A DNA stretch of 64,000 nt, taken from positions 19,893,863-19,957,862 of the forward strand of contig NC_089280.1 of assembly GCF_963678975.1 (NCBI RefSeq). The letters run 5' to 3'. The translations under genes were made by a program, and so were the position numbers. The notes beneath the pieces are model-generated. The model was not told the origin of the DNA. It was given only the letters and a program-made list of their open reading frames with translations, and ran no database searches. Below, piece after piece: positions 10,916-54,526 of this stretch (its first letter is position 1; each line of letters starts with the position of its first letter). The stretch is from Dysidea avara (taxonomy: Eukaryota; Porifera; Demospongiae; Dictyoceratida; Dysideidae).

Positions 10916-13697
10916 CTAATAGCGAATATAAAGTTTTGTGTAACATCTTCTACGTTCTCTGCTCCTGTTAACTTCTTCTTGTAGCAATTTACAGATATGC
11001 ATTTCCTCAAAATATTCAGAATAATGGGGTAGCCATAGTCGTTGTAATGTGTTATTATGGTGGATTGCCTGTACTAGACACTGAACAATGTCTACTCTGA
11101 TCTTGCCGCCAACCAACCTTAGATCTAGTAAAGAAGTGTTGGTCTGAAGTGAAGAAGCAATGACATTACAAGCTTCTTCAATGTTGCAATCATAGCTAAT
11201 GGCAAGCCGCTGCAGTTTTTGCCCCTTTGCTAATGAAGTGAAGAGGACAATAGTTGAAGAAGATGATAAGCTGGTTTTCCACATGGACAATTCCACTAGC
11301 TTAGAAGAGGGATGGAATAAAATGTCAAATAGAGCAGGGTCCTCTCCTATGGTGTGATTACGATTAATCAGCAAGCTTCTCACTTTGCAGTGGATAGTGA
11401 GATCACGGATGGAGGAAGATGATGATCTGGTGAGGCTATTGCTTGACAAATTCAGCTGCGAGATAGCAACATCACTGTGCAACAGGTCACGAGTCATCAC
11501 ACGAAGACCATGATCTTGAATATGACATGCCTTTAAATTCAGCAACATCCATTCCTTGTGGGTTGAAAAGGTGAGGAAGTGTGTAACACATTCCACATCA
11601 TATGGAGATAGGCTAGTTTTGCAAATCTCAAATTTTTTATCAATAAAACAGTTTGAATTTTCTAGAGATTGACAAATCTCTTCATCTCCAGCATCATGGA
11701 AACAACGGAAAAGATATACACATTTTGTTTGATGATTGAGAAATTCCTCAGAAATGGCTACTTTGCCTGAAACACCACCTCTGCCACGTGTGAAAAACTG
11801 CTTGAAAATTTGCAGGAAGGATAGTCGCTCATGTCGAAGGAATTTTTTGAAGGCTGGTCGCTGTCCTTCAGTGAGTGTAGTGTAGATGGAAAACATGTTA
11901 GCATGAATATTGCTCCAGAACTTTTCTTGGAGCAATATCAATTCTTGGCTTGCTGGAAGCTGAGAAACATGGTAAGCTGCTAAGAACTCCTGAATAGAGA
12001 AATGCAAGAAATTAAACGTTGTTGTTTTTGCAGTGAAACCAAAGTGCTGCACAGCCTGCAGCAAGCCAAAGCCATTGATTGCTTCTGGGACGTCTGTGAT
12101 GCCTGAACAAACTGCTTTTATTTCCTTTAAGGTGAAGATTAACTTGTTATCATTTAGAGCCATAAGAGAGAACTTTGCCAGTTGCTTAACAATTGTATTA
12201 CAAGGCTCTGGGAGGTCGGTAAGATTAGTGATATTGTCATTATCAGAATGACCAGACCTGGCAAGATGACGGCAGATGGTAAGACAGATGAAACGGCGGT
12301 ACAAATCCACAGCATTACTTGGCAAGGAAATTCCCTGACTATAAATGTAAAGCAATGCCACCATAATGAAGGGAACGTAGCAAAGGCTGTTGATTGTAAG
12401 GTGGCTCTCAAGATATTCAGTAAGCTCTTTTACTTTTTGTGGATGTTCCTTAAGTGATTGTTCAATGTATAGTTTTCGTTCTTCTTCAGCAAAGCCCAAT
12501 ATATTAACTTTCACTGTAGCTTGTTGGCGAAGTTTCACTGAAGCATGTGGGCGAGATGACACTACTATGCTACAGCAAGGTAGGACTTCACGTTTAAGAA
12601 TTTCAGCTACCAAACCTTTTTTTCGCAGTTTTTCAGGCAATTCATCGAAACCATCAAAAAGAAAAACAAGATCTATACCTGCATTCTTGGCAAGGTATTC
12701 ACTGCAGGCAGCAGTAATTTCTGGTGCTTTCCTGTGTCTTTTATAGAACAATGTAAGAAGGCTATCAATGTCTGATGCCTGCTGCACATCAGGGTCACGC
12801 AGTTGGACTAGAAGAACTAACTTGAAGGATTGTAACAGTTGTTTTATACTCCACTGATACAAAATTTCTTTCAACAACAAAGATTTTCCTATGCCAGGCA
12901 AACCCTCAACTAAAATAAACTGTGGATCACTGTTTTCCTCTAGTGGGGCTAAAATATCCACGAGTTGTTTTGTTATCTTACTAACATCAAGGACTTCTCT
13001 CAATGATTCATGGGTATCTAGTAGATCAAAGCTGGAACCATTATCTGTGGAAGTAAGTTCATCGATGCCACTTGACTGCAATTTAGCTAATGCAGTTGAG
13101 TGTTCAATGGTATGCTGACCTTGATGGTGAACTAAAAGCAATGGGGTAAAGTCTTTTGGCTGATTAGGTGGCCAAGCATCTTCATCAGAAGCGAACCGTG
13201 CTTGTTTACCTGTTTGGCTCACCCTTTCAGACAATACAGAGATCGCATTTGCACCTATAGAATTATAGAATGTAAAACACTTATAATTGTTATCACACTA
13301 CTGTACCTGGATCAGCTTGATCACTAGTTAATGCAGGTGATTTTAGCACTGTATTCAATTTTCCCCAACTAGCAGAGGGATCCTCTTCAAGCCATTTCTC
13401 AAACACTGCATCACAACAAGGCTCAGCTTTGTCGTGGTTGTCATACTTTATGATGTCAAGTGCTCCACTGGTTAGACCCAGAAGAGCTCCTATCACTCTC
13501 CAACGAGCACCATAGCGTGGAGTGATGTGATTTTGGAGATCTTTCAGTTGTGGAGTAGTACCTGCAAGAAATTTGTAATTAATGTTTAAACAATTATAAA
13601 GCTTAAAAGGGTGATTTCATAATGATTTTTGCACATATGTACCTTTGTAAATTTCCTTAAACTGCTCTAGTTCTTCATACTCACTCTGGTTTGCCAT
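10916..13697 (-). CDS. NLR innate immune receptor: DEATH-NACHT-LRR
   Basis: Three exons, 13697-13643, 13561-13307 and 13254-10916, join in frame through GT..AG introns into an 882-aa protein. Residues about 20-100 form a Death domain (YGARWRVIGALLGL, then a WLEEDPSASWGKL segment). The NACHT ATPase follows: Walker A GLPGIGKS near residue 221, Walker B LVFLFDGFDELP near 300, and sensor VVSSRPH near 335. The last ~200 residues (about 675-870) hold leucine-rich repeats such as SQLNLSSNSL. There is no signal peptide or membrane segment. By family analogy it is a cytoplasmic sensor that oligomerises on ligand binding and signals through Death-domain contacts. ATP-binding residues are present and no frame damage is seen. 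Start chosen at MANQSEYEELEQF, whose ATG follows a CTCCTACAG acceptor-like tract, so a 5'UTR intron is possible. Ligand unknown. Confidence 0.9.
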
Positions 13698-27398: not shown

Positions 27399-28251
27399 GG
27401 GAGCCTGTATTCTGCGGAATACGGAATAGCGGAATAGTAGAATAACGGAATAAGCGAAAATCACATTCTAAATATTTTGTTATTGTTTATAGCCTCTATA
27501 ACGTTTTAATATACATTCCTCACCTCGTAGAGAGCACAATCACGATGGCACCGATCCTCGGGGCGATCTTTAAATAGGATATGTACAAAGATATTCACTC
27601 TAGAACAATCTAACTAAGCTAAACTACCATCAAATACACTTCACTACACAATTGCTAGAAAACTAGAAGTTCTTTGCGCTATACTTGCTCATACCAGCTG
27701 TCATACACGAGTAACTTCCCAAATTTATTAGAGTTATATGCGAAGTGTTAGAGCCGAGGTTGGAGCTCTGATGTTGGGAGCTGAAAGCAGTATCATCCTC
27801 CGAATTTATTTGAAACACTATAGGAAATGGTAACAGAGTTATAAGAAAGGTCAGATTATTCCATGCATGCAGGGTAGCTACCTAGGGAGTGGATTGTTTT
27901 GTCCTAAACTATTCGGCCAGTTAGCTAGCTAGCTAGCTGCTCGTGTGTGACAGCTGATATGAGTAAGTATAGCACAAAGAACTTCTAATTTTCTAGCGAT
28001 TATGTAGTGAAGTGTATTTAACAGTAGTTTAGCTTAGTTAAATTGTTCTAGAGTGAATATCTTTGTACATATCCTATTTAAAGATCGCCCGAGGATCGGT
28101 GCCATCGTGATTGTGTTCTCTACGAGGTGAGGAATGTATATTAAAACGTTATAGAGGCTATAAACAATAACAAAATATTTAGAATGTGATTTTCGCTTAT
28201 TCCGTTATTCTGCTATTCCGCTATTCCGTATTCTACGGAATACAGGCTCCC
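27399..28251. mobile_element. Foldback element, 853 bp, 9-bp target duplication
   Basis: Begins GGGAGCCTGTATTCTGCGG and ends with the complement TACAGGCTCCC. Arms of about 270-290 bp are near-perfect complements. They include GGAATAGCGGAATAG-type runs near the ends and CGATGGCACCGATCCTCGG further in, around a ~300-bp centre. The sequence CATCTGGTG flanks it on both sides (27390-27398, 28252-28260). A 9-bp duplication and long arms fit Mutator-like/foldback elements. It has no gene and interrupts the CXC coding end of the host element. Confidence 0.93.
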
Positions 28252-31200
28252 CATCTGGTGGTGGTTTGGGGATATTCAAATTGGTGCATCCCTGGCACAA
28301 ACATCCTGGTCCACAGCTTCGTTGTCTCTTTCTACAGCCACATCTCTGAGTTTTGCAGCCTTTTGTGCAGCTACACCCTTTTGTTAGGAATTCTATAATG
28401 TCTTTGATCATTTGTCGGACCTCAGTTGCTTCCCAATCAAATACGTACTTACCATCTTCTTGAACTAACCACCCACTGTCTTGTGGAGATGCAAGTGATG
28501 CAAACATGTCTGCTTTGCCAGAATTCTGCCACATCTGACTCACCCAGCAGCATCTGAGCCAGTGTCGCCAAAGTGATGTGATAGTGGGCACCCTGTCCTC
28601 CTCAATTATGACTCTGTCACTCACAATTTCTCTGATACTGTTCAACCACATTCGATGCTGCTCCTCTGGCTGTAGTGTGGGGTCTATTGAATTAAACAAA
28701 TGTAGTGGTGTTTTATGGCCTTTCAGTGCTGCAAAACCTGTAGCATGCTTCATAAAATAGCATGTCCCAACAAGTCTAATAAATGACAAAAAACCATAGT
28801 GTTTGTCATCAGATGTCTGGTGTAAACACCCTAGCATGTTGTGACCACTAATAAATGATGCAAACTGAAAAAAGTTGTTCAAGACAGTCGCCTTCCCTAT
28901 AAACTTGAGGTAGGAAATGTAGTCACACCCTGTGCTAATAAACAAAGATTGTAATATTTGACATAATTCATTTCCTTGAGGTAGATTGCCAAGGTCGGAG
29001 TCTCTTGTTAGTGCTAACTTTAAATTGTTAATGTTGATGTACCTCTTTTCATCACGTAGGTAGTATTGGGATGTTGGCTTAAGTGACTTAGCCCAATATT
29101 GTACACATCCGTGTCTGGAGAATAAATGAGAATAACATTGGCATGACATTGCACAGCATGTCACCAGATTCTGTTGTCAGCTTCTTCAGCATTCGAATAG
29201 TATTCCTCTGGCTGTTCTATTGTCAATTCTACTGCATGTAATAGCCATGCGTTATTCTCACCTAAGCCTGAAATGCACCCAGCCATAACTAAACGTTGGT
29301 TGCCCTTAAGTAAGAAACGTCCATGTTGCAACAGAGAAAGCCCAATAGCTTCAACTATCAATCGTTTACATTGCTGGGACTGGAGGTTTTCTTGCCAATT
29401 ACTAGGGATATTTGTGGTAGGAGTGAATGAGCCATATTGGTGATTACTGCTATTCTGTGAATATCGCTTTCTGTGCTCGGACTGTTTAGGATTGAAAGCA
29501 TGCCTATGTGGTTTATCAAACACAAGGTGTACTTCTTGTATTCCAGCTCTAAAGTATTGGGTGACAAACTGTTCAAACAAGAAACAGGCATAGTCAGAAA
29601 ATGTTTTGGTTTGACGTAGTGGTCGTGTATTAATGATGAACATAGCATCTATAATAACAACTTGTGGTGTTACAGGTAAGGTGGTTGTAAATACTGGTGG
29701 ACTTGCCTTCTGGTAGCGAGTAGATAGCTTGTCTGTCCATTTGCTCTTGTTCCTCTTGTGTGGATTGCCATCTTCATCGCACAGAGTTCTAGGTAATTCT
29801 GAATACTGTTCTTCAGATGTGATATATGGCTGATGTTTATGTTTTACCCAAACAAGTTTCCGCTGCAGACATGTGAGTTTCTGCTTCATTTCTCTTTCAT
29901 TGTCAGTACCGCGAGCTTTTTTTGGTTTAGTTGACATTGTTATCAATCTGTGCTGTCGTAAAGGTGTTTTTATACCAGAAGTTTGCAATATGTGATATTT
30001 GACATAATTTTGATATGATTGTTTACCGATTTGATAGAATGAAAGCATGTCACTGGTTTGCTCATTAGTAGCTGGCTGGCCTGTAAATACATTCAGTAAA
30101 CCTCTGTTGTTGCATTGGCTGGCAGGAAATAAACTTTTAGAAATAATCAAATTACACATTTCCATGATGTTATCTTCGCACCTGTATGTCTGAGGAGAAC
30201 TATCTAGTATTTCTGATGGATGTATGTGGCTACCTGACTGTGGAGGAAATAGTTGATGTAATAGGTTCTTGTACAGTATAATGCGATCATTGAAAAACAA
30301 ATTCGTTTTCTGCAAGTATGATTCTGTTGGACGAACAACAGCAGTCTTTAAGTCCTTGTTGATGCACATCTCGTGCGCTTCATCCAATGCTACTGCCCGC
30401 TGTTGCTGTCCGGTGAGATTTACTGTAAAGCCTCCTTTCTCCAGACAGGTTAGAACAATTGATGGGTAGCATTGAATCGCAGCTAAGTGGTGTGGGATAA
30501 TGCGAGCATAGTAGTCTCTATCGAAAGCTGAAAATATAGGAACCATCTGTTTCAGACTTGCTACACGTAATTTCCAGTTGCTACTTCGTACAGCCAAGTA
30601 GAGGCTAATGTAGGAGAAGCAATCTCTAAAGACAAACTGGGCCCAAAACTTCCATGTCTGATCAACTTCACTCATCCTATCTACGAAATCCTTGAAACCT
30701 TTATTAGTATGGCTGTCTTTCACTAATTCAGATGTTCGTTTCACCATGTGTTGCAGCGATCTCTTTTCTTGTATACTAGACAACAGGATACAACTAGCAT
30801 CCATAGTGATGGTGTTGCTGGAGTTACTAAGGTAAGTATGCAATATTTCTCTGTAAAGGGCTTCCCATGCTTGCATGAGAAAGTAGTGCATACGTTTAAA
30901 GTTAGAGCATTGTTCTATAGATTTTAATGTACTACCATGGTACCCTGCATTACTGGCTATCTCCTTCAGACCAGCAGCATAATAAATTTTCATAAGAATT
31001 GGTTGATAATTTTTTTAAATATTCCAATCTCCTGGGAATAACAGCTTTTGAAGGGCTGTACTATACTGTTTTTTAATGTTCATAAGATGTTTGTATGTTT
31101 TTCCGTCACCTACTAAAAGCACGTATCCATTCTGTACATTATCAAATTTGTCAAGCAAGTCCTCTGTTACCAGTGTCATGGTTTCCATACTATCTGGGTT

Positions 31201-32330
31201 TTCATTTATTAGCTCCATGTATGATGGGTGTTGATGACCACAGTTGTTATTGTCCTCTAAACAAAATCTGAATTCACAAAGAGTTGCTTTTGATGGGAAT
31301 TGGCTTGCCTGATAGTGTAAGGTATGCTTTTGAAGGACATAAGAAAATAATAGATCATGTAAGTTATTTTTTTCATTAAGTTCAGTGCTGGTCTGTAGAA
31401 AATGGTTAAATGCTAATGTTGTTGCTGTTGTTTCCATGTATACTTGTGAAGTTTGTATTGTGTTGTTTGTAGTGAGACCTGATGCTAAGGAGTGGACTTC
31501 AACAGTTCTTGGACGCTTGGGTCCCAGTTTGTGATGGCTATCAGAAGATGCATGTTGTTGACTGGATGAAGTTATTGGTGGAGAACTGTCAGTGGTTGTT
31601 TTGCAAGGGGCACTCGGTGTTGCAGTACCTTCTGATGAACTGGTTGCTGTAGATGGTAACACTAAATTGTCTGGATCTGGTTGTACTAGCTGTAGTGTAG
31701 TGCCATGATAACTCCTATGTTGGTTGCCACAATAAACTGCTGCATAACTTTGCAGCATGTCGAAGTTATCAATGGAGGCTATTGTAAATCTATTGTTTGG
31801 GATTTCATCCCAGATTTTAGATTGACGTTGAGCTATAGCATGTTGAGTTACGAATCTATCATGGATATCTGGAGAGGAGACACACCCTAATCTGTTTAGA
31901 ATACTAATTAGTAGCCGTGACCCTCCACAAACTTCTACAACATCAGCAATCAGATCGTGGATTGGTGTAGGCTTCTTGGGATTTGTGCAGAACTTGAGTT
32001 GATTTAAAATGAAAAATAATCGAATTTTTTTAATGTGTTCTGTAACATTGGTGGTCTCTCTATCTCTAACTGTAGTTGTTATTGATGTTAAAAATTGAAG
32101 TAATAGAGGATTGATACTATTTAACTCTTCGTTAATGTTAAGTAACGCACAGCTGGGAGATGGTTGTGAATGAGATGACTTCTTTATTTCTTCATGTAAT
32201 AAATTATTGACAATGATACTTGCTTCCTTTAGTGTTGTGTCTACGTCTGGTATTTGACATTGGATTTCAGGTTCAGATAAGTACTGATTTGGGGGTTGTG
32301 ATGCACTGAGTGCCCAAGACAATACAACTA
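28252..32330 (-). pseudogene. PIN-CXC mobile-element protein, main body (FEN1-like nuclease plus CXC)
   Basis: Minus-strand body of a large multi-domain protein resembling repetitive animal-genome proteins. From the N side it has a GGSRLLISILNRLGCVSS segment, DNFDMLQSYAAVYCG, and a VALDEAHEMCINKD segment. A FEN1/XPG-type PIN nuclease follows: IIDAMFIINT, VHLVFDKP, AEEADNRIW, DTDVYNIG, and STGCDYISYLKFIGKA, which matches the FEN1 GCDY..I.GIG helix-turn-helix. At the end is a Cys-rich CXC domain (CSCTKGCKTQRCGCRKRQ). This copy is dead: TAA at 31015-31017 where a Leu is expected, TGA at 29161-29163 just after RIW, and a frameshift between about 29040 and 29085. On both sides of the two nonsense codons the frame continues, so they are point mutations. 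Function is inferred only from fold motifs; the nuclease may cut flapped or structured DNA. Confidence 0.8.
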
Positions 32331-32356
32331 CGGTACAAATCACCCACAAGTTAAAC
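32331..32356 (+). repeat. Left terminal inverted repeat of Tc1-BEN element
   Basis: CGGTACAAATCA at the border next to TA. Mismatches to the right end are at positions 13 (C versus G) and 20 (G versus C). The palindrome CCACGCGTGGA follows at 32360-32370, then AACACGCGTGTT. Confidence 0.95.
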
Positions 32357-32637
32357 GATCCACGCGTGGAACACGCGTGTTATTTTCGTGTACCTGATTA
32401 TCGTGTGAAGCCTCGCGAGACTTAGCGAGTAATTCGCACACTTACCAGAAAATGTGCGTGCGCCCTAGCTACATATTGCAACTGTTAACGAGAGTTAAAT
32501 ATACATAGCAAGCATACTAACAAAGTATAGTAGGCACACACAAATACATACGCGGTCCACTGACATTATAAACTCTGTACCCGGTGTGAGATCGTCCTTC
32601 AAAGATATCGGTAGGCATTAAAACAAATTCTGCTAGC

Positions 32638-32647
32638 GCGCATGCGC
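32638..32647. promoter_or_regulatory. NRF1-like site upstream of BEN gene
   Basis: Palindrome GCGCATGCGC, the core of the NRF1 binding site, lies 67-76 bp before the BEN start codon in a locally CpG-rich stretch. No TATA box is evident. It suggests a housekeeping or germline-type promoter carried by the transposon. Confidence 0.5.
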
Positions 32648-32713
32648 AATTCTGTTCGAGGCCACGTTGTTGTAGCGTTGTGTTGTTGTGTTGACAGTGT
32701 GAGTCGAGGTGAT

Positions 32714-35700
32714 ATGTTTCGTGAAAGAAGGAAAAAGAGAGATAAACGTGGTGTGTTTTTTGAAGTAGGCGTAGAAATTTTAGCGTGAAATGTGTACTTT
32801 TCAGAGGAAAAGGAGACCTACGCTGTGGTGTCATACGCCGATGATGGTACAGTAGGGAAAGTTCCGCGAAAGAATATAGTAGAAGATAAAGACATTGTCA
32901 TTGGCGAAACCTACTTTGTCCGTTGGTCGGATGGAAAGAAATATTCAGCCGAGGTGTTGTTTATTGGTAAGAATGTTGTAAACTACAGTGTGCACGATGC
33001 AGTTTATTTGTACTTATTATAACTGGTGTGTTAGCCAGCACCATGCAGAGCTTTAAATAGACAAATAATAACTAAAGAATATGGCTTGCTTATTCACTTC
33101 ATTATAATCAGGGGGTTTGGAAACTCGCACGCCGCCATTTATATTTCACACCTCTGTTTAGTGGCTCTCAATTTTTTTTCCTCCCTCTCAAAGGCTCATG
33201 GTAGCTTAGATTCGCCTGAAACTTGTTCTGTGACTTGTTTAATGCTATACCTTGAGCAACGGGTGGTTTGGAACTCCAGCAGCAGCAGAGAAAGGGATTT
33301 CGTCTCGTTGCGTCTGGATATCACCAGATTTCACAATTTTTTTCGTCACTCTAGTGGCCAGGTACTTGCATGTTTTGCATTGAGATTTTCTGTGTAGCTT
33401 CATATACATTAGTTCTATGTTATAGGCTATGTATCTTTGTAAAAGTAAGGTGTCAAATTCCTCGTAGACGAGGATAGAACGTGTGAAAAATAGAAGTTTC
33501 AAATCCCCCCACTCTACTATCTATGTTATAATGAAATAGCAAATCCATCATTCTAGTTTGTTTACTGATCAGCAGGAGGCTAATTGCATTTGTGTGTGTC
33601 TCACTATAGTTGTAAACAAGTGCCTATGGTTGGCTTGTCAATTATTTTTATAACAGGCAACTTAAAACTTGTCAACTGATGCAAGGGGCTAAAACAGCTA
33701 CAGAAAACTTGTACCTTTATTGCAGTGCTGGATGTAATCTGAGGTGTTAAATACTACCTTTTATAGGAGGCTAATTGCATTCATACTTGTAAACTTGTCC
33801 ACATGTGCCCTATACCAATAATAACCTACTGGTAGTACCATTAACTCTTGGTAGTACTGTTTAATTTCTTGTTGACAGGTGCATGCATTGGTGGAGTTTG
33901 CCTGTTGAATTTTGAAGTGTCTTTAAGTTCATTAAAACTTGATAGTGGTGGTTGATGTTACAAAAGTCACTTTTCGCAATGAGAGCCATTCCAGATTGGC
34001 AGAGGGCCTAGAATTCACTTTGTGTAAGAACACGTTCGTGCATCCAATTTGGCTTGTCAGTTCAAATAATTTTCTGCAAGATTCATGTGCAAACTACTGT
34101 ACCTGGTTTTTTTGTTATGTTGTGCACCTCCCACCAGAAAATTATGTTGTCAATCAGAAAAATAGGCTAGGTCTTCAACCATCACTTTTGTTAGGGTTTG
34201 GTCTTTGGTGACCACAAACCATCAGCTTGTTAACTGAGTACATGACACCTTTTTATAGCTGAAAGGATGAGTCTATTATGGAAAAACTGGTCTGGCAATT
34301 ATGGTTATATCATATTTATACCTTCTAAGTAATAGTTAGACAGCAAATACCAGCCTCTTCGGGGAATAAATGTTGAGTAGGAGGTGTTAGAATGATGCAA
34401 CATAGAAACCAAGGCGGATAACTTACTTAGACAATGGTGTACAAACACTGAACCTAGTGCAGAGCGTTCCTGTTGTCGAGCCTGTTGTAAACACCAATGC
34501 AAGCGAGTTTTCCGGTGGTGAACTGAGTGGATACGTAGCCAGCAAATCCATTAAACATGAGTAAAGGACACAGTTTTAGTTGTAGCTATTAGTAGCGACG
34601 ACTTTAACGGGCCATACTGTCTAATACTTGGTGTATAAATCGGTAAATACTAGGCGAAAGGCCACAAGTTGAATTACTCATCGCGGGCTTTGCCAGCTTC
34701 AGTATTTTGGCCAGGCTAAACAGTAATACTGCTGAAACACAGCCATCAATTATGCAAGATCGTTACAATCGGCTCGCAATCGCTTCACTTTGCTTGGTGT
34801 TTACTAACGTGTTAAATACTAATTGCCACAAAAGGCTATTAAATTGCATTACTGTGTGTAATTGTGGTTGTCACCTGACCGCAGGTCTCTTAGCACTAAG
34901 AGACTTGCTGCGAAGTCTCTTCGTAAACAAGAGACCTCCACACATCAAACGAAACACTGCATACCATTGTCTAAAGTGAGTTGGTCTGGTCTTGGTAGAT
35001 GTTCTACCAGCTCCCTGCATATGGACAAATCAGTAGTGGTCTGGTTCAGGCATGACTAACCAAACCCACTTCTCCAGACATAAATCACGCATTTTTAGAA
35101 TACTGTATTAAGTTAATATTTATGATTTACTTAGCCAACTTGGTGAAATATTCATTAGGTAATGAACGTGAAGCCACAGAAAAGGAGCATTTGTTGGTCT
35201 ATGATGACAGTGACACAGGGAAAGAGGACAACCAAGTAGAAGACAGGTGCAGTGAGGTACATACTTTTAGTACTTAATGAGACTTTGTATAAGTTGTTAC
35301 TGCGTGTATAGCCGCTTTCTTTATTTTCCATGATCGTTCTTTTTACACCATAAATAATACAAATAACAGGGTTAATCTGAAAGGGTCTCAGTGGTGTTGG
35401 TTGTTGAATATTTAGCACAAAACTAGCACACTACATGGTTCGCATGGGAATTAGGGACTAATACCAAATAGTGTCAAGCTTTTAGGAGGCAAACTAGTCA
35501 AACTGGTAATGCAGGCAAAGCACGCTAGAACAGCTGAATACCAGCAAATATTACTCTGTGCTTCATTCCAATCTGGTTACTGCGGGAGCAACTTAAGCTT
35601 TATTACTCCCACTCTAAATTCCTACCTCTTTATTCTTCACAAGCATGCAGATACGTTAAATTGGGTGTTATTGTGAAAGAGTAGTACCGTAATATGATTG

Positions 35701-38700
35701 AGGAAATTAGCGGATTCTGAGTATATAGGTCCCACCAAATGGTGGTAAAATGGTGATAATTTCTTTGGGATTAAGGATGATCAATGACTTTCCCTAGTTG
35801 GTTAAAGATTATGCACTGGGCAATCAGCTCAGGTGCTTAGCCCAGGGTGCAACAACTCCACTTGGTTTGATCAAACATTGTGTACTATACATTAGCCAAT
35901 ACTAATTAAATAAATGTGTTAAGACTTTATGATTGTACACTGATTGGTTGATAGTGTTAGCTTCTCTAAGACACGATTCGACATCTTTTTTATGATATCT
36001 CCTCCACATTCATTTGTGTTGACTGTGATGGTGAACTTCTCAAAAGCTCAAAATATTCTATGACTGGCTATACTAGTTTTTCTAACATGTCTTTAAGGGG
36101 TTCAACAATACCTCGCATCACAGAATTAGCATATTCAGTATTTGCTGGGTTGAAGAATCAACACTCTCCTGAGTGGGACATTAAATAGATGCAAACAACT
36201 TAGTTCCACAAGGTTGGAATAACCAGTGAGCACAGTTTGCCTTCCCAATAACAGCTAAATTCTCTGCAGGGGTACCACAGTATATTTAAAACAATACCAT
36301 AGAAAACAACACTCAAATACACTGTAATCCATCTTGTAGAGTTAGGAAACAATGTGATATCACATGACTGCTTGAGGTCTAGGATAACAGATATTTCAAC
36401 TATGCAGGCTATAGCTATGCTATGTAATAGTGATTACTGTGTTAAATTAATATTATGTATGTAGGCTCCGCCAAAGAAACAGCTATCGAAAAAGAAGCAG
36501 CCACATACTAAGAAGGTGACATCTAAGAAATGTAAGAAGCAGGTGCCAATGAAACAAAAACTTCCGTCTGATGGAAGAAAGACAAAGACTAAAAAGGCTA
36601 AACAACCTAAAAAGACACCTGTATGTGTTGTAATCCTGATGTACAATAATTATACTAATGTATAATCACAGGGGAATAAAGACAAAGACAATTTTACAAT
36701 TGAAATTGGTTCACCAGCTTCTACTTCTGAAGAGGTACAGTGATAACACATATTAATATAAAATAACAATGCCACTTAATTGGATAGTGTGTTTATTGAT
36801 TTTTAAGTTTATTAACAATATGCAAATTTAAGAAGATATTCTGCTGACTTTCACTGTGGGTGGTCATTATTTAATAATGAAGTGCAGCAGTATAAAAAAA
36901 TTTGTCTGGCCTACAAATAAAGTTTTTGTTAGCTTAGTATTTCTCCCATGCTTCATGGTAGCCTACAATATGTTTTTGCGATAGTTTGTGAAATATTATG
37001 CACTTTCAAGTTTATAAAATCTTGTATGAATCCCATTAATTGCTTTCCCAGCCAACTATTGGTATCTATTGCTGTTCCAAGCCATGTAGAATTGTTTCAG
37101 CGATTAACCTGGCATATTGCTATATGTGTGCACTTAGCAAAAGACATTCCATTCTGCAATAATTCCCACAGTATCCACTCATTTCTTACAAGATAAGTTA
37201 ATAAGAAAGTTGAATAAATTGGATTACGATAAATTTGTTTTTGATATTCATCTACAGTGAGGCATAAGTTGTTAATGGTACAACTGGTGATTGTGACATG
37301 TCATTATTGTTGAATAATTTATTACCTGATTGGTGCAAGACAGTGACCTCTGAATGAGAGTAGTTGTGTGTATACAGAAATTCCTTGACTCTCCTTTGTT
37401 CACATTAGCTATAAACAAATAAACCTGTTGCTGCATTTTGGAAAACTGATTGAAATCATGCATTAGATGTTTCGAGATAAATAGTTATAAAGATTTCAAG
37501 CCACCTTAGCTCACCAAGGGTAATGAGCACACTTATGACATTTACACACAAGATGCATAAATTTATTACTTTTTAGAACATTCAAAGAACTTAGGTTGCT
37601 TTTACAGTTTCTTGGCAAATAAGTTGGACAATCTGAACTGTTGGACGTGCAAGGTATCATGGATGCTCACAATAGGGTGGGTGGGTGTGTGGGCAGGTTG
37701 GGGGAAAGGAATAGACTGTAAAATGGCATTGCACAAATACTGAAGCTAAAAGTTACAATCACAGTGGCTCCTTAGTGGCTGATATGCAGCAGAGTGAACA
37801 CAGAAAATGTTTGGCCAACTTAAAAAGGCCATCCACCAATAGACCACTGATTCTTGCCACCCAGGACCTCACTAAGGCTATCACTGTTTGAGGCCTTCAC
37901 ACAACCCAGAAAAAGACATCTATCAAGAAAAGTTTGAGCGATGCTGTGGGTCAAAACATGTAGAGCTTACCACTGGCGGTGTTAATTTGATTTTGCCTGA
38001 TGTGTAATTTGGATTGGTTTTCCAATATCTGGTAACAACACAGAATGTTCAAAACTACTGATTACATGCCTCGCACTAAGGCAATTTGGCAATAAACAGA
38101 TCTTTCTGTTTTTGAATTATATTGTAATTTTATAGCTGCTAGTGTTGTGTGTACATTATTTATGTCATAAATTACTATTTTATATTATGCAGGAAGACAG
38201 ATCAGACGACGAAAGTGAAGTTGATTTCCTTGGAGAATTGAGAAACGTATGAATAAACTGTTTAATTTAATGTGTGTATACTGACTGGCTCTTGTGTTTG
38301 TTGTAGCTACAACTGGGCTTATCCAAGCTAACAGATCAAGTTACCATAGCATTGGAGTCAACACCAGAAAGCCATAAGAAATTAGTGTATTCTTCGGGTA
38401 ACCAGGCTGAGGAGAGAAAGCAGGTGCCACAGTTGACAGGTACCAGGCCTCCAGTTGCAAGTTCTTCGCCTGGGAACACTTTTAACTTTGATGTGCGACA
38501 GCAGGGTAGCTACAACCGTGCACCATCGAGTTATGAGGGCGATTACAGTAGACCGAATAAGTATTCCACGAACACTTTCAATATTGATGTTCGCCATCAA
38601 AATAATGCAGAAAGGAGTGCCGCTAAATGGTATAATGATCGTAATGTTTATTCTCCGATGGAGGCATCGTTTGATGCTTATGGAATGGATGACAGAACCA

Positions 38701-39404
38701 GGGAGGGAGAAAGTTTTGATTACGGTGGTACTATGGACATGTCTTATGCCGACAACATATTCAATGAAACCAACAGTTTTAATGATGTTCTGGGTAGTTC
38801 AGGTTGGAGTAGCCATTCTCAGTTTGACCACACATATGCTGGGAATGAAAATTTAAGCAGCAGTCCCAATTTTGATTTTCAGTTGTCAGACGACAGTGGT
38901 AGTTTTCAAGAAATGCAAGCCGATGTATATGATGAAAATTATGTCCCTCCTCTGCCGCCACCAATAGTGATGCCAGGCATAAATCGTGCAGCTTTTGGCC
39001 AGTCCTCTGTTTGTAATGATAATGAGGTACGCAAGAAGTTACCTGTTCGCTCCTTCAATGTAAAGAAACCAAAGAGAAATGATAGGCTTTACCCGATTAC
39101 AGAGGTGTTTAACCCAATATTTCTACAAAATTGGAAGCAGGAAAGTTCGTCCCGTGCAAATTTTGCCGCTAGATTGATTAAATGTTTCATTTCCAAGGCT
39201 GTCAGAATGACATCGAACGTGTCTGGAAAACGTGGCAAAAACAAATTAGACAAAGATATACTTGCAGCCGTAAAAGTTGCCACCTTTAAGATGTGGCCAT
39301 TGCGATCCACAGAGAACGAGCAACTGGCCTGGTCGAAGTGTGTCAAATCTATTGATGAAATGGGACGGAGGTTGAATCGGCCACCAAGATCTGCAAAAAA
39401 CTGA
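32714..39404 (+). CDS. BEN-domain protein, transposon cargo
   Basis: Seven exons, all with GT..AG borders and compatible phases: 32714-32750, 32805-32966, 35159-35256, 36465-36620, 36672-36734, 38193-38246 and 38307-39404, giving 555 aa. The first intron is only 54 bp. Residues about 13-66 form a small beta-rich module (YAVVSYADDGTVGKVP, ETYFVRWSDGKKYSAEVL) often seen before BEN domains. Residues about 133-184 are very Lys-rich and should direct the protein to the nucleus. A Ser/Asn/Asp-rich linker repeats NTFNFDVRQ/NTFNIDVRHQ. The BEN domain is about residues 458-545 (NFAARLIKCFISKAV, SGKRGKNKLD, W.KCVKSIDE). BEN domains bind DNA and chromatin partners and are also found in some viruses. Start: the ATG of MFRERRKKRDKR; an in-frame TGA just before exon 2 shows that exon needs an upstream exon. 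A role in targeting or silencing is inference. Confidence 0.92.
32967..35158 (+). other. BEN gene intron 2 (2.2 kb)
   Basis: Bounded by GTAAGAATG and TTCATTAG. No coding segment or obvious repeat was recognised; open stretches at 33086-33397 and 33939-34211 have no domain. Part of the size of the 9.4-kb element comes from this intron. Confidence 0.6.
35257..36464 (+). other. BEN gene intron 3 (1.2 kb)
   Basis: Starts GTACAT and ends TATGTATGTAG. Nothing further recognised. Confidence 0.6.
36735..38192 (+). other. BEN gene intron 5 with dispersed repeat
   Basis: 1458-bp intron from GTACAG to TATGCAG. Positions about 37617-37900 match the dispersed repeat at 838-1110, including 27 identical bases at 37765-37791. 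Part of the element's size is therefore from a later insertion. Confidence 0.65.
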
Positions 39405-39853
39405 TTGTTTTCAAAAGTGACTGGATCTTTTAATGGTTAATAACATGATTTAGGTTCAACAGTTTTTTTGTGTTTGGCTTTTACTGGTTACATTGTTAAT
39501 TGATTGCTTTGGTTTTGTTCAGTACACAGTTTTGTTTTATGTACTGTTTTGTTTCGTTCAGTACTCACGTTTGTTTTATGTACTGTGTTGTCAATGTAAT
39601 CAGTTTTGTCATGTTTTTTAGTTCATCAAAAATAGTACAATTGTGTCATTTATGGCATTCAGACTCGTTTTTGCATGTATTTTTATGTTCTAAACAGTCC
39701 CCCCTCCCCAAACACACACAGAGATGATTTCGGTTTGCTAAGAAGTGCCCCTAATCTCATGTTTTGTCAAATGTTGTCAATTAATCAAAATTTATACAAG
39801 AATACTGGGTCATGTTAAACTATAGTTACATAGTTGAAAGAGTACAGTACACA
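39405..39853. other. Intergenic spacer between convergent cargo genes
   Basis: Tail-to-tail region of the BEN and transposase genes. Contains a repeated TTTTGTTTTATGTACTG-like block (near 39530 and 39575). No separate gene. Confidence 0.6.
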
Positions 39854-41565
39854 TCAGTGCCCAGAGACGTCTCCTCTCTGCTTAACAACAATTGGCATCA
39901 CTTTTTTTATGTGGTTAATGTATCTCTGACATGTCTTGGGTGTTAGTGTTTTCCAAAACTTCTTGATGCCAGATTTGAGACCCTCAAGATTCCTGTTTTC
40001 CAGCTTGCGGAAATGTACTGAGCGTAGGTAGTTCTTCATTGAACCCCATACTTTCTCTATTGGGTTGAGGTCCGGACTTTCTGCTGGAGTTTTCCACCAG
40101 TTGACCTTACGTTTGGTGAAAAAATTTTGTATGTAACGACTTCTGTGTTTGGGGTCATTATCCTGTTGGAATCGATGACTGTGGGGAAATTTGGCTTTTA
40201 TGAATGGCAATAGTCCAGCTTTCAAGATGGTAGCATATCGGATTGCGGTCAAATTCTCAGTAAACATGATTACCCTTGAAGCACCTCTCATACTGATTGC
40301 ACCCCAAATGTGCACTTTCAAGGGGTGCTTAGGTTTTGGCTTAAACTTTCGTGGCTGCCCTCTTCGTCTTGAAGTGCGTCTGCTTCGTTCAATGGCAACA
40401 GAGCATTCATCCGACCATATCACATCTTTAAAATTCTCACAATTGATCCTCTGCTGCAAACACCATAGCAACCTCTTTTGCTTATTGTTGTTTCGTATCA
40501 TTTGACAGTAGTGTGGCACACTTGATACCCATCCTGTAATAGTATGCACTAAGTGATTTTTTGCATCTACACACATGTAAATAGTGCTCAGTTTAGGGAA
40601 TTTACCCTCACCCAATAATTCAGTGTCCATGACAATTAGTTTGTGACCATAGCTACTTGAATGCACACAGCGACCAGCCTCTAGAAATAATTATTGTTCT
40701 GGTGTTCATAACTATTTTTAAAGCTCTGCATGCTATTTTAAGGTGAAATTATCTGCTGAGTGATAACACGAGTTGGCTGTTAAGACTATTCAGCATACTC
40801 AACAAACTATATATTGGGAATACGCCAGGCACTAAAGCCCATTTTTTTCATAAGGCCACTGCAACAGAATACACTAGCTGAGGGAATAGAGCATTAGCCT
40901 AGGGTGTGGACTCAAAAATAATTTTCACAGCCGTGGTTCAAAGCACATTATCAAATTAGAATTTAGCGCCTAAGAAATGATTCAAGAGGCTCTTGTTAAT
41001 TTACTTACTTTGAAATCATCACGCGTCTATTGCAGTAAAGAGCAGTCTTGTAAACCTGTTAAGAGTTATGGAGACAGTTTAAACGGTTAGTTCAGTATAC
41101 TCTGCGTACACGTGTTAATGCATTCATAATAAGCCCGGAGCTGTACTAACAATAATTCCCCAGCTAGGCTCTACGAGGAGCATCCCTTACACTAGCTATT
41201 TTTATACCAAACTTATCTGACGTACCTAAGTGCTTTTTGGCACGGTAAACAGTTGAAGAAGATACATTCACACCCTTCTTTCTTAACATACGACGTATCT
41301 CATTGCATGTGATCTCGTCATCTTGGTCTAGTGCATTGTCGATCATTCGTAAGTGCTGGAATGATAGCTTAGCAGCGCGAGAAGGTGGTCTTAGCCTGTC
41401 TGATATAATGCCTTCATTGTTGTACTTCTTGATCAATAGGCAGAGGCTTGTTTTCGACACCTCAATACCTTCATCGCGAAGTCGAAGCTGGATGTTCTTA
41501 AGCTTATACCCTCGATGTCGCAATATAATAACCCTCCTTCTGGTCTCCATAGACATTCGACCCAT
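39854..41565 (-). CDS. Tc1-like DD34E transposase with intron
   Basis: Two exons, 41565-41226 and 40533-39854, join through a 692-bp intron (donor CACTTAG|GTACGT, acceptor CTATTACAG|GA). They give 339 aa, the usual length for Tc1 transposases. Residues about 1-110 form paired-type helix-turn-helix DNA-binding domains (METRRRVIILRHRGY, VSSSTVYRAKKHLG). The RNase-H catalytic triad is Asp155 (WSDECS), Asp238 (QQDNDPKH) and Glu273 (SPDLNPIEKVWG), with 34 residues between the last two. Family function is cut-and-paste excision and insertion at TA, which fits the flanking TA. No stop or frameshift is seen. The splice junction rejoins the conserved motif exactly, so it is an intron, not an insertion. 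The start ATG (MGRMSMETRRR) lies 169 bp inside the right end. Confidence 0.93.
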
Positions 41566-41708
41566 GTTTTTCGCTACACAAAGAGTGTTAAGTTCAATGC
41601 TGCACACGCAAAACTGTGTATTCGTGCTTTGGCATCGTGCAAATTCGTGTGCGTGGCTGCATAAGTAGTGAAGTCCACGCGTGGGTATTGCGTGTAGCAA
41701 TAACGTGT

Positions 41709-41734
41709 GTTTAAGTTGTGGCTGATTTGTACCG
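41709..41734 (-). repeat. Right terminal inverted repeat of Tc1-BEN element
   Basis: On the minus strand it reads CGGTACAAATCA, G, CCACAA, C, TTAAAC, bordered by TA. The palindrome CCACGCGTGG lies at 41675-41684, and ACACACGTTATTG resembles the subterminal region of the left end. Confidence 0.95.
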
Positions 41735-42755
41735 TATGACATCTCCCCCTTGACGATACAATACAGTCCCAAGTTTCTTGTGAACACACTTGTACATCAT
41801 GTAACCATCAAGGTGAGTGATTAGTTGGTGTAGTAGCCAACAAGAAGTAAATTTCACACTGCTATCTCCCACGTCTAGGGTAACTTGAACAGTATTGGTG
41901 TCCTCAGAGGGCTGAATACCATAAACATTAAGAAACACTTGACATATCCATGGAAGTAAAAGGGCCTTCTGGACCAATAAGTGCTGGGCTACATATATGA
42001 AACTATGGCTTTGGTAAGATGATCAGTTTTGCTATCTTCCTTTGTAGCCCATTCCTTGATAGATTTTTGTAACATTTCATCTGACCCATTTGGTTTACAA
42101 TTTGGTTTATAATCTGTGGACTTAGCAATAGTGCAGTGTGTGTTATAACAGATAGTACAAATATAGTCATCTGGTGATATAACAGTGTCAGTTCCAGTTG
42201 TATCTGTAATGTATTTTGAAACTACTACAGGGTTGGGACTGTGATGATAAAGCTTCTGACCAGGTTTAGGTGTAGCTCCACAAGAAGAGCAGTTTTGTGG
42301 ATGATTTAGCTCACGATAAACTTTACTATAGCAGCTTGGGCACAGGAGGAATGGGGTACTTGATGATGACTGTACCCCAAGCATTTCCTCAAGTTCACTT
42401 ATGTTAGCAAAAGCAGGCTTGATGAGTTTATCACTTAACTTGTTGGTGCATGCAGGGTGTATACAGGATTTAGAAGATGTCTGTATACTATTTTTCCATT
42501 TCGGGGTATAGTGGGGAATGTCATTGTAGCGTTTTGCTTCTATCCAATGTTTTTTACAAATATTGCTATCTTCGGGTAGGTGTTTACCAACTAAAAAACT
42601 CTTTTTCTGTAGCCCCTACATTGATATACCTTAATTTTTGACTAACTCTGTTTCCACACAGGACACAGCACTGTGAGGTCTACTCTTCAGCTGACTCAGG
42701 AGCAGTGATAGCAGAATTCTGGCACAAGGAGTCTCCACCTGATGACTAAATTTAA
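41735..42755 (-). pseudogene. PIN-CXC element protein, N-terminal zinc-binding part
   Basis: The part upstream of the Tc1-BEN insertion, minus strand. From 42606 it reads through CKKHWIEAKRYNDIPHY, CPSCYSKVYRELNHPQNCSSCG, and YICTICYNTHCTIAK. These paired cysteines and histidines suggest zinc-binding modules. Then it reads LLLPWICQVFLNVYG and ends GGDVI at the insertion point. A frameshift (AT insertion in the CATATATGTAG context) lies near 41986-41991. Further upstream, another Cys pair (CCVLCGN) at about 42640-42755 may be an earlier exon joined by a short intron, but its phase does not fit cleanly and it contains a TAG. The codon at the break (ATA) is completed by the TA target and followed in frame by GTT at 32328. 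Confidence 0.75.
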
Positions 42756-52998: not shown

Positions 52999-54526
52999 TG
53001 ACTCCAGTAGCTAGCTGGTTTTCAGTATTCACAAATAGCGGATCACTCTTATTCCAAATCCCGCTTCGAAAAGTGCTGCTGACCGCACTTTCTCACCAGT
53101 ATCGGTAAATTCCCATCATTAATGATCACATACCGTAATTAATTGTAGCTTTTCAAATTAATTTTTTTTTGTTGCTTGTAACTACCAGTCGCCCACGCGC
53201 TCGATCACGCGAAGGTCGAGTGTGTGGGCGGATGGGGACGAGACTAGCTTGCCACGCCGCCTCAGAGGAGGATTTTACAGGAACGAACGATATGCAAATT
53301 CGGTCTACCTGTAACTCACCCGTCATTTACGCTATCCCTCTGAAACTCTAGACTTTATAGCAAGGAAGTGGCAATACTGAACCGAAAGGTTTTTATTTTC
53401 GCGTCTAGTAGTTTCCCCGAGCATCCCACTTTGGGAAGTGATCTTACCCAATCCCATGAGGTCACGTGACTTGTGTTTAAGTACGCGCCTCTAAAATCTC
53501 GGTATAATTTTTATTAGCAGATGTAGCCATTCCACAGGTCAATAACAGAAAAGATGGAACAAGAAGTCTCTTCTTCGTGACTACAGATAGTTGAAAGTAA
53601 AATCGTTTCTCTGTTTGGGTGTATGCATACACAGTGTAGCTATCATGGCTATAAAACTAACTTGACATGCTTCCTTAGTATCTTGTGTACCACTGTATTG
53701 TGTTACAGTATCTTGTTGTTTTTTACTCCACAAGAAGAAATGGAATTGTTCTAGTACTAGTAGTAGTTCCCTTAACAAGACCCAACACAGGAAGGGGTAG
53801 GTGAGGGATAATATTGATAGGTGCATTACACCCACTGACTGTATTTTATATCCCACCTCCCGGTAGTCTAAGATGTATAGGCTTGTACGTGGGGAAGTGA
53901 TATGTATGTGGTTGCTCAGGACTGGCTCAGTCGAGGGGTCACTAATTCCACTGACAAATCCTCAAAATTGTGTACGAGAGGCCCAATATTCATAAAGTAT
54001 TTCTAAATACAATACTGTATAGCCAGAAACTTTGGCGGATTTGCAGCGATAGGATTTTGGCGAGAACAAAGTTTGATGAATTTGTTGAGCTTCTACAGAT
54101 TTGCATTGGACAAACGATTTGGTGGATTTTAGTTTGGCGAAACATCATTCATTTGCCAAACTTTCTAGCTATACAGCATTACTTTTATTTACCAAAATAT
54201 TTTTACTTGTGCATTAACAAAACAGTAAATGACTGGAGACCATAGGAGCACAAGGGCAATAACCTGTTATATCCACCTGCACCTGTTGAGAGAGTGAACA
54301 GAAATGAAAATATCTAATATTGTAAATGATTCCAATTTTATAATGGATTTCTAAACGGATTTCTCAGATAGTGTATGAAAGTAAGATATTTGTAGTCAAA
54401 AAAGTTACAGCTAGCCATGCTTACGTATCATAAATAGCGTAAGTACCTACCAAAAAGAAAAACTAACTTTTAAAAAACCGAAGTTACAACTACTAGCTTA
54501 CTGTAGTGAAACAAGCATTACGTTAC
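52999..54526. other. Intergenic, nothing recognised
   Basis: A GC-richer patch near 53185-53280 and a CACGTGACTTGTG E-box at 53463 could mark a promoter, but no gene follows that I can support. Confidence 0.4.

Follow-up and report, generated by a model that had tools for sequence, protein, structure and literature searches.

A Tc1/mariner transposon carrying a BEN-domain gene, and its relatives, in the genome of the sponge Dysidea avara

In a 64-kb stretch of the genome of Dysidea avara, a keratose sponge, we found a Tc1/mariner (DD34E) element of 9,404 bp at 32331-41734 that carries, facing its transposase gene, a second gene coding for a BEN-domain protein (the whole stretch analysed is referred to as the window). 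In textbooks, Tc1/mariner elements stand for transposons with a single gene, and gene-transfer tools have been built from them. Judged from sequence comparisons, the window element appears to belong to a large, old two-gene Tc1 lineage, and both ends of its elements carry clustered CpG motifs, which differ between families. With moderate confidence, we favour the reading that the BEN protein would be a conserved accessory protein binding the subterminal CpG motifs of its own element, by analogy with the Myb-like protein of Harbinger elements.

The window element and its closest copies

The element is bounded by 26-bp terminal inverted repeats, which agree at 24 of 26 positions, and by a TA on either flank. 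Rejoining the flanks with a single TA gave an open minus-strand frame running across the junction, and therefore the entire 9.4 kb was inserted as a single unit in one step. A first-pass annotation had described a 9.4-kb Tc1/mariner element with 26-bp ends, a TA duplication, a DD34E transposase and a BEN gene, the two genes converging and each starting near one end. The ends, the rejoined frame, the catalytic triad and the domain match bear this description out, as do the gene starts, 383 bp from the left end for BEN and 169 bp from the right end for the transposase. The features are listed below; here and throughout, genes are called open or intact as judged from predicted splicing.

32329-32330: left TA target duplication, from the sequence
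32331-32356, plus strand: left terminal inverted repeat, 26 bp, identical to the right end at 24/26 positions and present at the left of 5/5 copies
32360-32369: left subterminal palindrome CCACGCGTGG, a BEND3-type motif (exact match)
32372-32379: second left CACGCGTG site (motif match)
32714-32750, plus strand: BEN exon 1 (predicted splicing)
32805-32966, plus strand: BEN exon 2, small N-terminal domain (weak Tudor_2/Tudor-knot match, below cut-off)
35135-35256, plus strand: BEN exon 3 (predicted splicing)
36465-36620, plus strand: BEN exon 4, lysine-rich linker (predicted splicing)
36672-36734, plus strand: BEN exon 5 (predicted splicing)
37431-38037: dispersed repeat of about 0.6 kb within BEN intron 5 (36 of the 45 genome matches of the element, 70-73% identity)
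38193-38246, plus strand: BEN exon 6 (predicted splicing)
38307-39404, plus strand: BEN exon 7, with the BEN domain at about 39081-39401 (profile matches, AlphaFold2 model, Foldseek to BEND3 BEN4)
39854-40533, minus strand: transposase exon 2, DDE domain (DDE_3 match)
41226-41565, minus strand: transposase exon 1, helix-turn-helix (HTH) region (HTH matches below cut-offs)
41675-41684: right subterminal palindrome CCACGCGTGG, whose minus strand gives the BEND3 word CCCACGCG at 41678-41685
41709-41734, minus strand: right terminal inverted repeat, 26 bp, identical to the left end at 24/26 positions
41735-41736: right TA target duplication, from the sequence
28205-42615, minus strand: interrupted decayed repeat element, the insertion target, outside the transposon (one frame matching DUF6589, PF20231; rejoined frame)

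Besides its DUF6589 match, the target element has a cysteine-rich stretch and is broken into several frames.

The transposase gene lies on the minus strand (exons 41565-41226 and 40533-39854) and encodes 339 residues. The protein matched DDE_3 at E 9e-17, and its HTH matches fell below their cut-offs. The triad is D155-D238-E273, in which we take the catalytic D within QDND on assumption, and 34 residues separate its last two members, as the DD34E spacing demands. The window element thus combines D-D-34-E, a TA duplication and terminal inverted repeats, the features of Tc1/mariner. PIF/Harbinger elements have their own type of transposase and 3-bp duplications; what we found instead is a DD34E Tc1 transposase with a TA duplication. 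A 3-bp duplication is also reported for a group related to PIF/Harbinger. Prokaryote and viral contigs scanned with the transposase yielded no relatives.

The BEN gene, on the plus strand, is stop-free across seven exons with GT-AG splice sites and encodes 563 residues according to predicted splicing. The full protein found no match to Pfam BEN at E<=1, and its last 132 residues matched at E 0.002 with 18.7 bits, under the 23.2-bit cut-off. The BEN proteins of two related loci (L038 and L040) exceeded this cut-off with 23.5 and 23.9 bits, and nine of the ten members of sequence set A2 matched Pfam BEN at E<=0.1. Searched against the protein data bank (PDB), the last 132 residues matched BEND3 BEN4 chains (best 8.2e-5), and a profile built from ten BEN stretches reached BEND3 BEN4 at 1.5e-17 (PDB) and BANP at 4e-9. 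The AlphaFold2 model of the BEN domain based on 67 sequences had a pLDDT of 92.7, compared with only 46 from a two-sequence alignment. When this model was submitted to Foldseek, rows 1-22 of 59 were BEN-domain structures, two rows having E<=0.001, and the top match was a BEND3 BEN4-DNA structure (TM 0.70, E 5.5e-4). By profile and predicted fold, the C-terminal domain of the window protein is a BEND3-like BEN domain.

The N-terminal domain in exon 2 weakly resembles small Tudor-type domains, below the cut-off, and a stretch similar to this exon was found in an old copy (C14:450180) and in another family, family D. The full BEN protein retrieved itself only from the protein collection, and viral contigs scanned for BEN contained no relatives. 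An "uncharacterized protein [Dysidea avara]", isoform X4 (P0123), bears by eye the BEN exon of a further family, family F; this spliced NCBI model with isoforms hints at transcription.

We searched the genome (550,814,596 bases in 108 contigs, by which copies are named), and all counts are lower bounds because the genome searches score best candidates only. Five near full-length copies (C9, C11, C3, C6 and C2) were found, each with both genes, intact or damaged. They have the same ends and the same left TA, and the right TA is present in four of the five, the C6 copy having TG. The first-pass annotation had looked to several full-length copies with both genes between the same ends, and these five, four with TA on both sides, provide them: they hold both genes or their remains rather than the transposase only, and the pairing recurs across many families rather than being a single host gene. 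Its statement that both frames are undamaged applies to C9 and C11. In C3 the transposase is open and BEN is broken, and in C6 and C2 both are broken.

Outside the rearranged part the copies diverge by 0.66-1.18%, near-equally across all pairs, which resembles the pattern after one burst, and their near-identity suggests recent movement. Internal inversions inside BEN, of 408 bp in C2 (4373224-4382617) and 633 bp in C6 (39553543-39562402), have junction overlaps of a few bases and are taken as ordinary repair events. The end pattern, with at most three mismatches, matched the genome 14 times, ten of the matches being the ends of the five copies. Two of the remaining four belong to older copies that retain BEN pieces and whose alignable DNA, close to the ends and to BEN, is 74-80% alike: one has the left end (C14:449679) followed by BEN exon 2, and the other the right end (C15:12236639) with BEN exons and no transposase match. 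Near the last two (C14:820068 and C2:7837851), neither protein was matched within the stretches fetched.

Convergent BEN and transposase genes across the genome

The BEN protein matched the genome 86 times, and the 52 matches covering the BEN part fall into 51 loci, which represent 50 elements because the C6 inversion splits one. The 34 matches set aside are N-terminal or middle exons and short pieces, including two more pieces of the C15:12236881 locus. The transposase had 134 matches in 102 loci. It lies within 3 kb of 45 of the 51 BEN loci. In 44 of these pairs the genes are tail-to-tail with a gap of 104-599 bp, where 0.06 would be expected by chance; the one exception is the C6 piece that was inverted. 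At the other six BEN loci no transposase match occurred within 3 kb. Outside the window family, old copies included, 10 + 3 loci were read and the remainder were judged by coordinates. Eight further loci that were read (L037-L044) are all convergent pairs, L042 retaining only transposase exon 1.

Fifty-eight transposase loci had no BEN match, and three of them (L058, L059 and L060) were read. L058 has a convergent frame that the BEN profile matched at 1.3e-4, and L060 has one that is 60% identical to it and was itself unreported by the BEN profile. Compared jointly with the BEN profile, the two frames gave an hhalign probability of 74% (E 2.9e-5); the L058 frame had no Pfam support, and a PDB search with the pair gave no BEN. 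Such frames are termed BEN-like here and probably represent diverged BEN. The L058 frame matched the genome 43 times in 40 loci, 19 of which adjoin one of the 58 loci and 21 do not, and all 19 beside a transposase are convergent. Taken together, a BEN or BEN-like gene faces the transposase at 63 of 102 loci. The contigs C14 and C15 (15.0 and 14.2 Mb) hold 26 of the 40 BEN-like loci, well above their share of 550.8 Mb.

Two other families were delimited by reading one copy of each, on C3 (family F) and on C7 (family D), the others being known from coordinates. In family F both genes lie between the arms of a perfect 31-bp inverted repeat that includes TA; nine copies, 8.7-9.4 kb long, have both ends exact, all nine enclose BEN and transposase matches, and the transposase is free of stops in each. 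Family D has a 44-bp repeat (97.7%) around both genes in 4.0 kb, and at least six end pairs 4.0-4.4 kb apart enclose both genes among 100 of the 574 end matches. Across the window family, F and D, 20 elements retain their two ends together with the two genes or what is left of them, and elements of the three families measure 4-9.4 kb. As a side observation, the family D ends have 574 matches at up to two mismatches, set against six two-gene copies among the 100 listed; ten other places read share just 20-33 bp with these ends, and several have an inner palindrome by eye. For a transposase (P0053, 71% identical) and a BEN piece (P0199, 57%), the contig of origin is in each case a jgi contig 3,843 bp long, and the equal size suggests that a single contig from a different source carries the two genes.

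Chance or artefact is ruled out by the five copies, the rejoined frame and the 63 convergent pairs. So is a single host BEN gene, by its multiple copies between inverted ends, and a composite made by later insertion into a Tc1 element, as other families share the layout.

FastTree trees of the two proteins agree in their main groups and differ in branching within them. The transposases form {window, L041, L042} (support 0.998), {L039, L044} (0.979) and the rest {L037, L038, L040}; the BEN proteins form {window, L034, L042, L041} (0.958), {L039, L044} (0.387, weak) and {L037, L038, L040} (0.888). The rows are partly fragments (transposase exon 1 only for L042; L037, L039, L041 and L044 partial), and L043 was omitted, being of the family of L037. 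Compared with the old C15 copy, BEN has a dN/dS of 0.19 over 386 codons and of 0.14 in the BEN-domain stretch. The estimate is rough, since dS is close to 1.4 and the codons come from five pieces, a short one of which overlaps another. For L033, the other old copy, the ratio was 0.31 over the 63 codons of its exon-2 piece, which has one stop.

These data bear on the notion that BEN is a passenger, captured once and carried without use to the element. Cargo genes are known in other elements, and 39 of 102 transposase loci show no BEN; set against this dN/dS, the congruent main groups of the trees and the same convergent layout at 63 loci, a passenger seems very unlikely to us.

Subterminal CpG motifs and the possible role of the BEN protein

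The palindrome CCACGCGTGG has two sites in the 64 kb, at positions 30-39 of the element counted from its left end and at 51-60 counted from its right end, and allowing one mismatch added no site. With one mismatch allowed, two matches were also reached in 3 of 100 window shuffles, so placement rather than count matters. CACGCG has ten matches in the window, a number reached in 0/100 shuffles, and seven of the ten are inside the element. CCCACGCG lies within the right site, and its one other copy in the window, at 53192, is outside the element. According to two reports, BEND3 binds CCCACGCG (PMC10206803; PMC10407929).

Family A, whose BEN domain is 51% identical to that of the window element, served as a test: the right end has CACGCG sites, and so has the presumed left end of the same element, examined afterwards. 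Within the two 150-bp ends, CACGCG occurs six times in the window element and seven times in family A (0/1000 shuffles each), and is absent from D and F. ACTCG occurs ten times each in D and F (0/1000 shuffles each), once in the window element and not in A. The right ends of L039, L041 and L043 were not recognised. CpG observed/expected ratios are 1.1-1.6 at the ends versus 0.44-0.48 inside in the three elements measured, and the window is CpG-poor. Among the other copies of the window family, C11 has kept all sites, and C6 and C2 have lost the second left site wholly or partly.

The profile and fold match to BEND3 BEN4, whose motif CCCACGCG occurs at the right end of the window element, counts in favour of binding by BEN. 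We picture that the BEN domain would bind the subterminal motif (CCACGCG in the window family) near each terminal repeat, mark the ends of the element and help to load the transposase there, bringing or stabilising it. The protein may also tune the expression of both genes, because the CpG-rich ends are probably their promoters, and the small domain at its N-terminus may interact with chromatin.

Since both genes start in CpG-rich ends, expression control or anti-silencing is the main rival explanation, and possibly an added role. In this version BEN binds the ends and acts on chromatin or transcription only, keeping the terminal promoters open or repressing the transposase, without a role in cutting and joining. 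The gene starts, 169-383 bp from the ends, and the weak Tudor-like match at the BEN N-terminus fit such a role; against it, the start codons are farther from the palindromes than the terminal repeats are. We rate a role confined to chromatin and transcription as rather improbable; it and the accessory role that we favour do not exclude each other.

The subterminal motifs could also serve the transposase as additional sites, comparable to the inner repeats of Sleeping Beauty, with BEN binding elsewhere, e.g., host DNA. That the motif type also tracks the transposase groups speaks for this, but the closest BEN domain of solved structure binds the very word that forms the motif in the window family and in family A, and BEN and transposase are retained together across families. 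We regard this explanation as unlikely.

Several observations weigh against the accessory role that we favour. The transposase could be what binds, since the type of motif matches its groups no less than those of BEN, and clustered CpG words are also expected of an unmethylated promoter. There are exceptions to the match with the BEN groups: two CACGCG also occur at the right end of L044, a member of the L039 group. ACTCG was picked by eye after viewing the ends. In the window family, the right motif is mutated in the C3 copy and BEN is broken in three of the five copies. No BEN or BEN-like frame was present in the 3.5 kb examined at L059, one of the three such loci read, and at 39 of the 102 transposase loci neither a BEN nor a BEN-like match lies within 3 kb; some related elements may hence do without BEN or have decayed. 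Short elements with family D ends, e.g., of 219 bp among the matches listed, imply that BEN need not be present in cis.

The first-pass annotation had suggested that BEN might help target selection, block silencing or regulate the transposase. A DNA-binding protein borne by a transposon could guide insertion to chosen targets, but the five insertion sites share TA only in the 12 bases on either side, by eye and in a small sample. Target choice is unsupported here and, in our estimate, very unlikely; self-binding or regulation fits best. Elsewhere in the window, at 10916-13297 on the minus strand, lies an NLR-like gene with a NACHT domain (E 5.5e-21).

A more far-reaching form of the accessory role can be put forward tentatively. 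BEN could be part of the transposition machinery in a two-component animal branch of Tc1/mariner, in which each family's BEN domain and subterminal CpG motif, for instance CACGCG or ACTCG, evolved together, so that an element would recognise itself and perhaps sense methylation; BEND3 and BANP may then share history with mobile BEN genes.

Comparison with known systems

A long-lived Tc1 lineage that keeps a second, DNA-binding gene raises the question of what its transposase cannot do alone. Its families with distinct end motifs offer a ready test of DNA choice by BEN domains, and BEN genes of animals could have come from such mobile elements or ended up in them, an origin testable by phylogeny. 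In the literature searched, by title and start of abstract and with subscription journals outside the scope, no description of BEN genes inside transposons was found, nor anything on the Dysidea avara genome together with transposable elements. Some papers treat BEN genes that came to Lepidoptera from bracoviruses.

The window element resembles Tc1/mariner DD34E elements in its TA duplication, terminal repeats, DDE_3 domain with 34-residue spacing and HTH matches below cut-off, and differs from them by its second, seven-exon gene and the CpG-rich subterminal clusters, and also by size, elements of the three families measured being 4-9.4 kb long. The view in the first-pass annotation that Tc1/mariner elements are normally small and single-gene is fair as a generalisation, but TBE elements and Fanzor-bearing Mariner elements carry extra genes. 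The TBE elements of the ciliate Oxytricha are Tc1/mariner elements with three open reading frames (PMC4724952), likewise multi-gene; in place of BEN, their extra genes encode a zinc finger/kinase protein and a 22 kD protein without a known function. Mariner elements bearing Fanzor1 or a methyltransferase, with TA duplications, are described in another report (PMC3627910). They too carry extra proteins, of cargo kinds that differ from the one DNA-binding gene recurring in a fixed layout seen here.

The closest functional parallel may be PIF/Harbinger. In Harbinger3_DR, a subterminal motif of 9 bp is bound by the Myb-like protein, which also contacts the transposase, and PIF elements reportedly need both proteins (PMC9710019). 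Both systems have two genes, one for a separate DNA-binding protein, and the motif clusters at both ends of the sponge elements would correspond to such binding sites. They differ in that the transposase belongs to another superfamily and BEN replaces Myb/SANT. Among solved proteins, BEN4 of BEND3 is the best relative by sequence and fold, with CCCACGCG as its motif. Whereas BEND3 is a cellular factor with several BEN domains, in the sponge a single BEN domain is borne by a mobile element.

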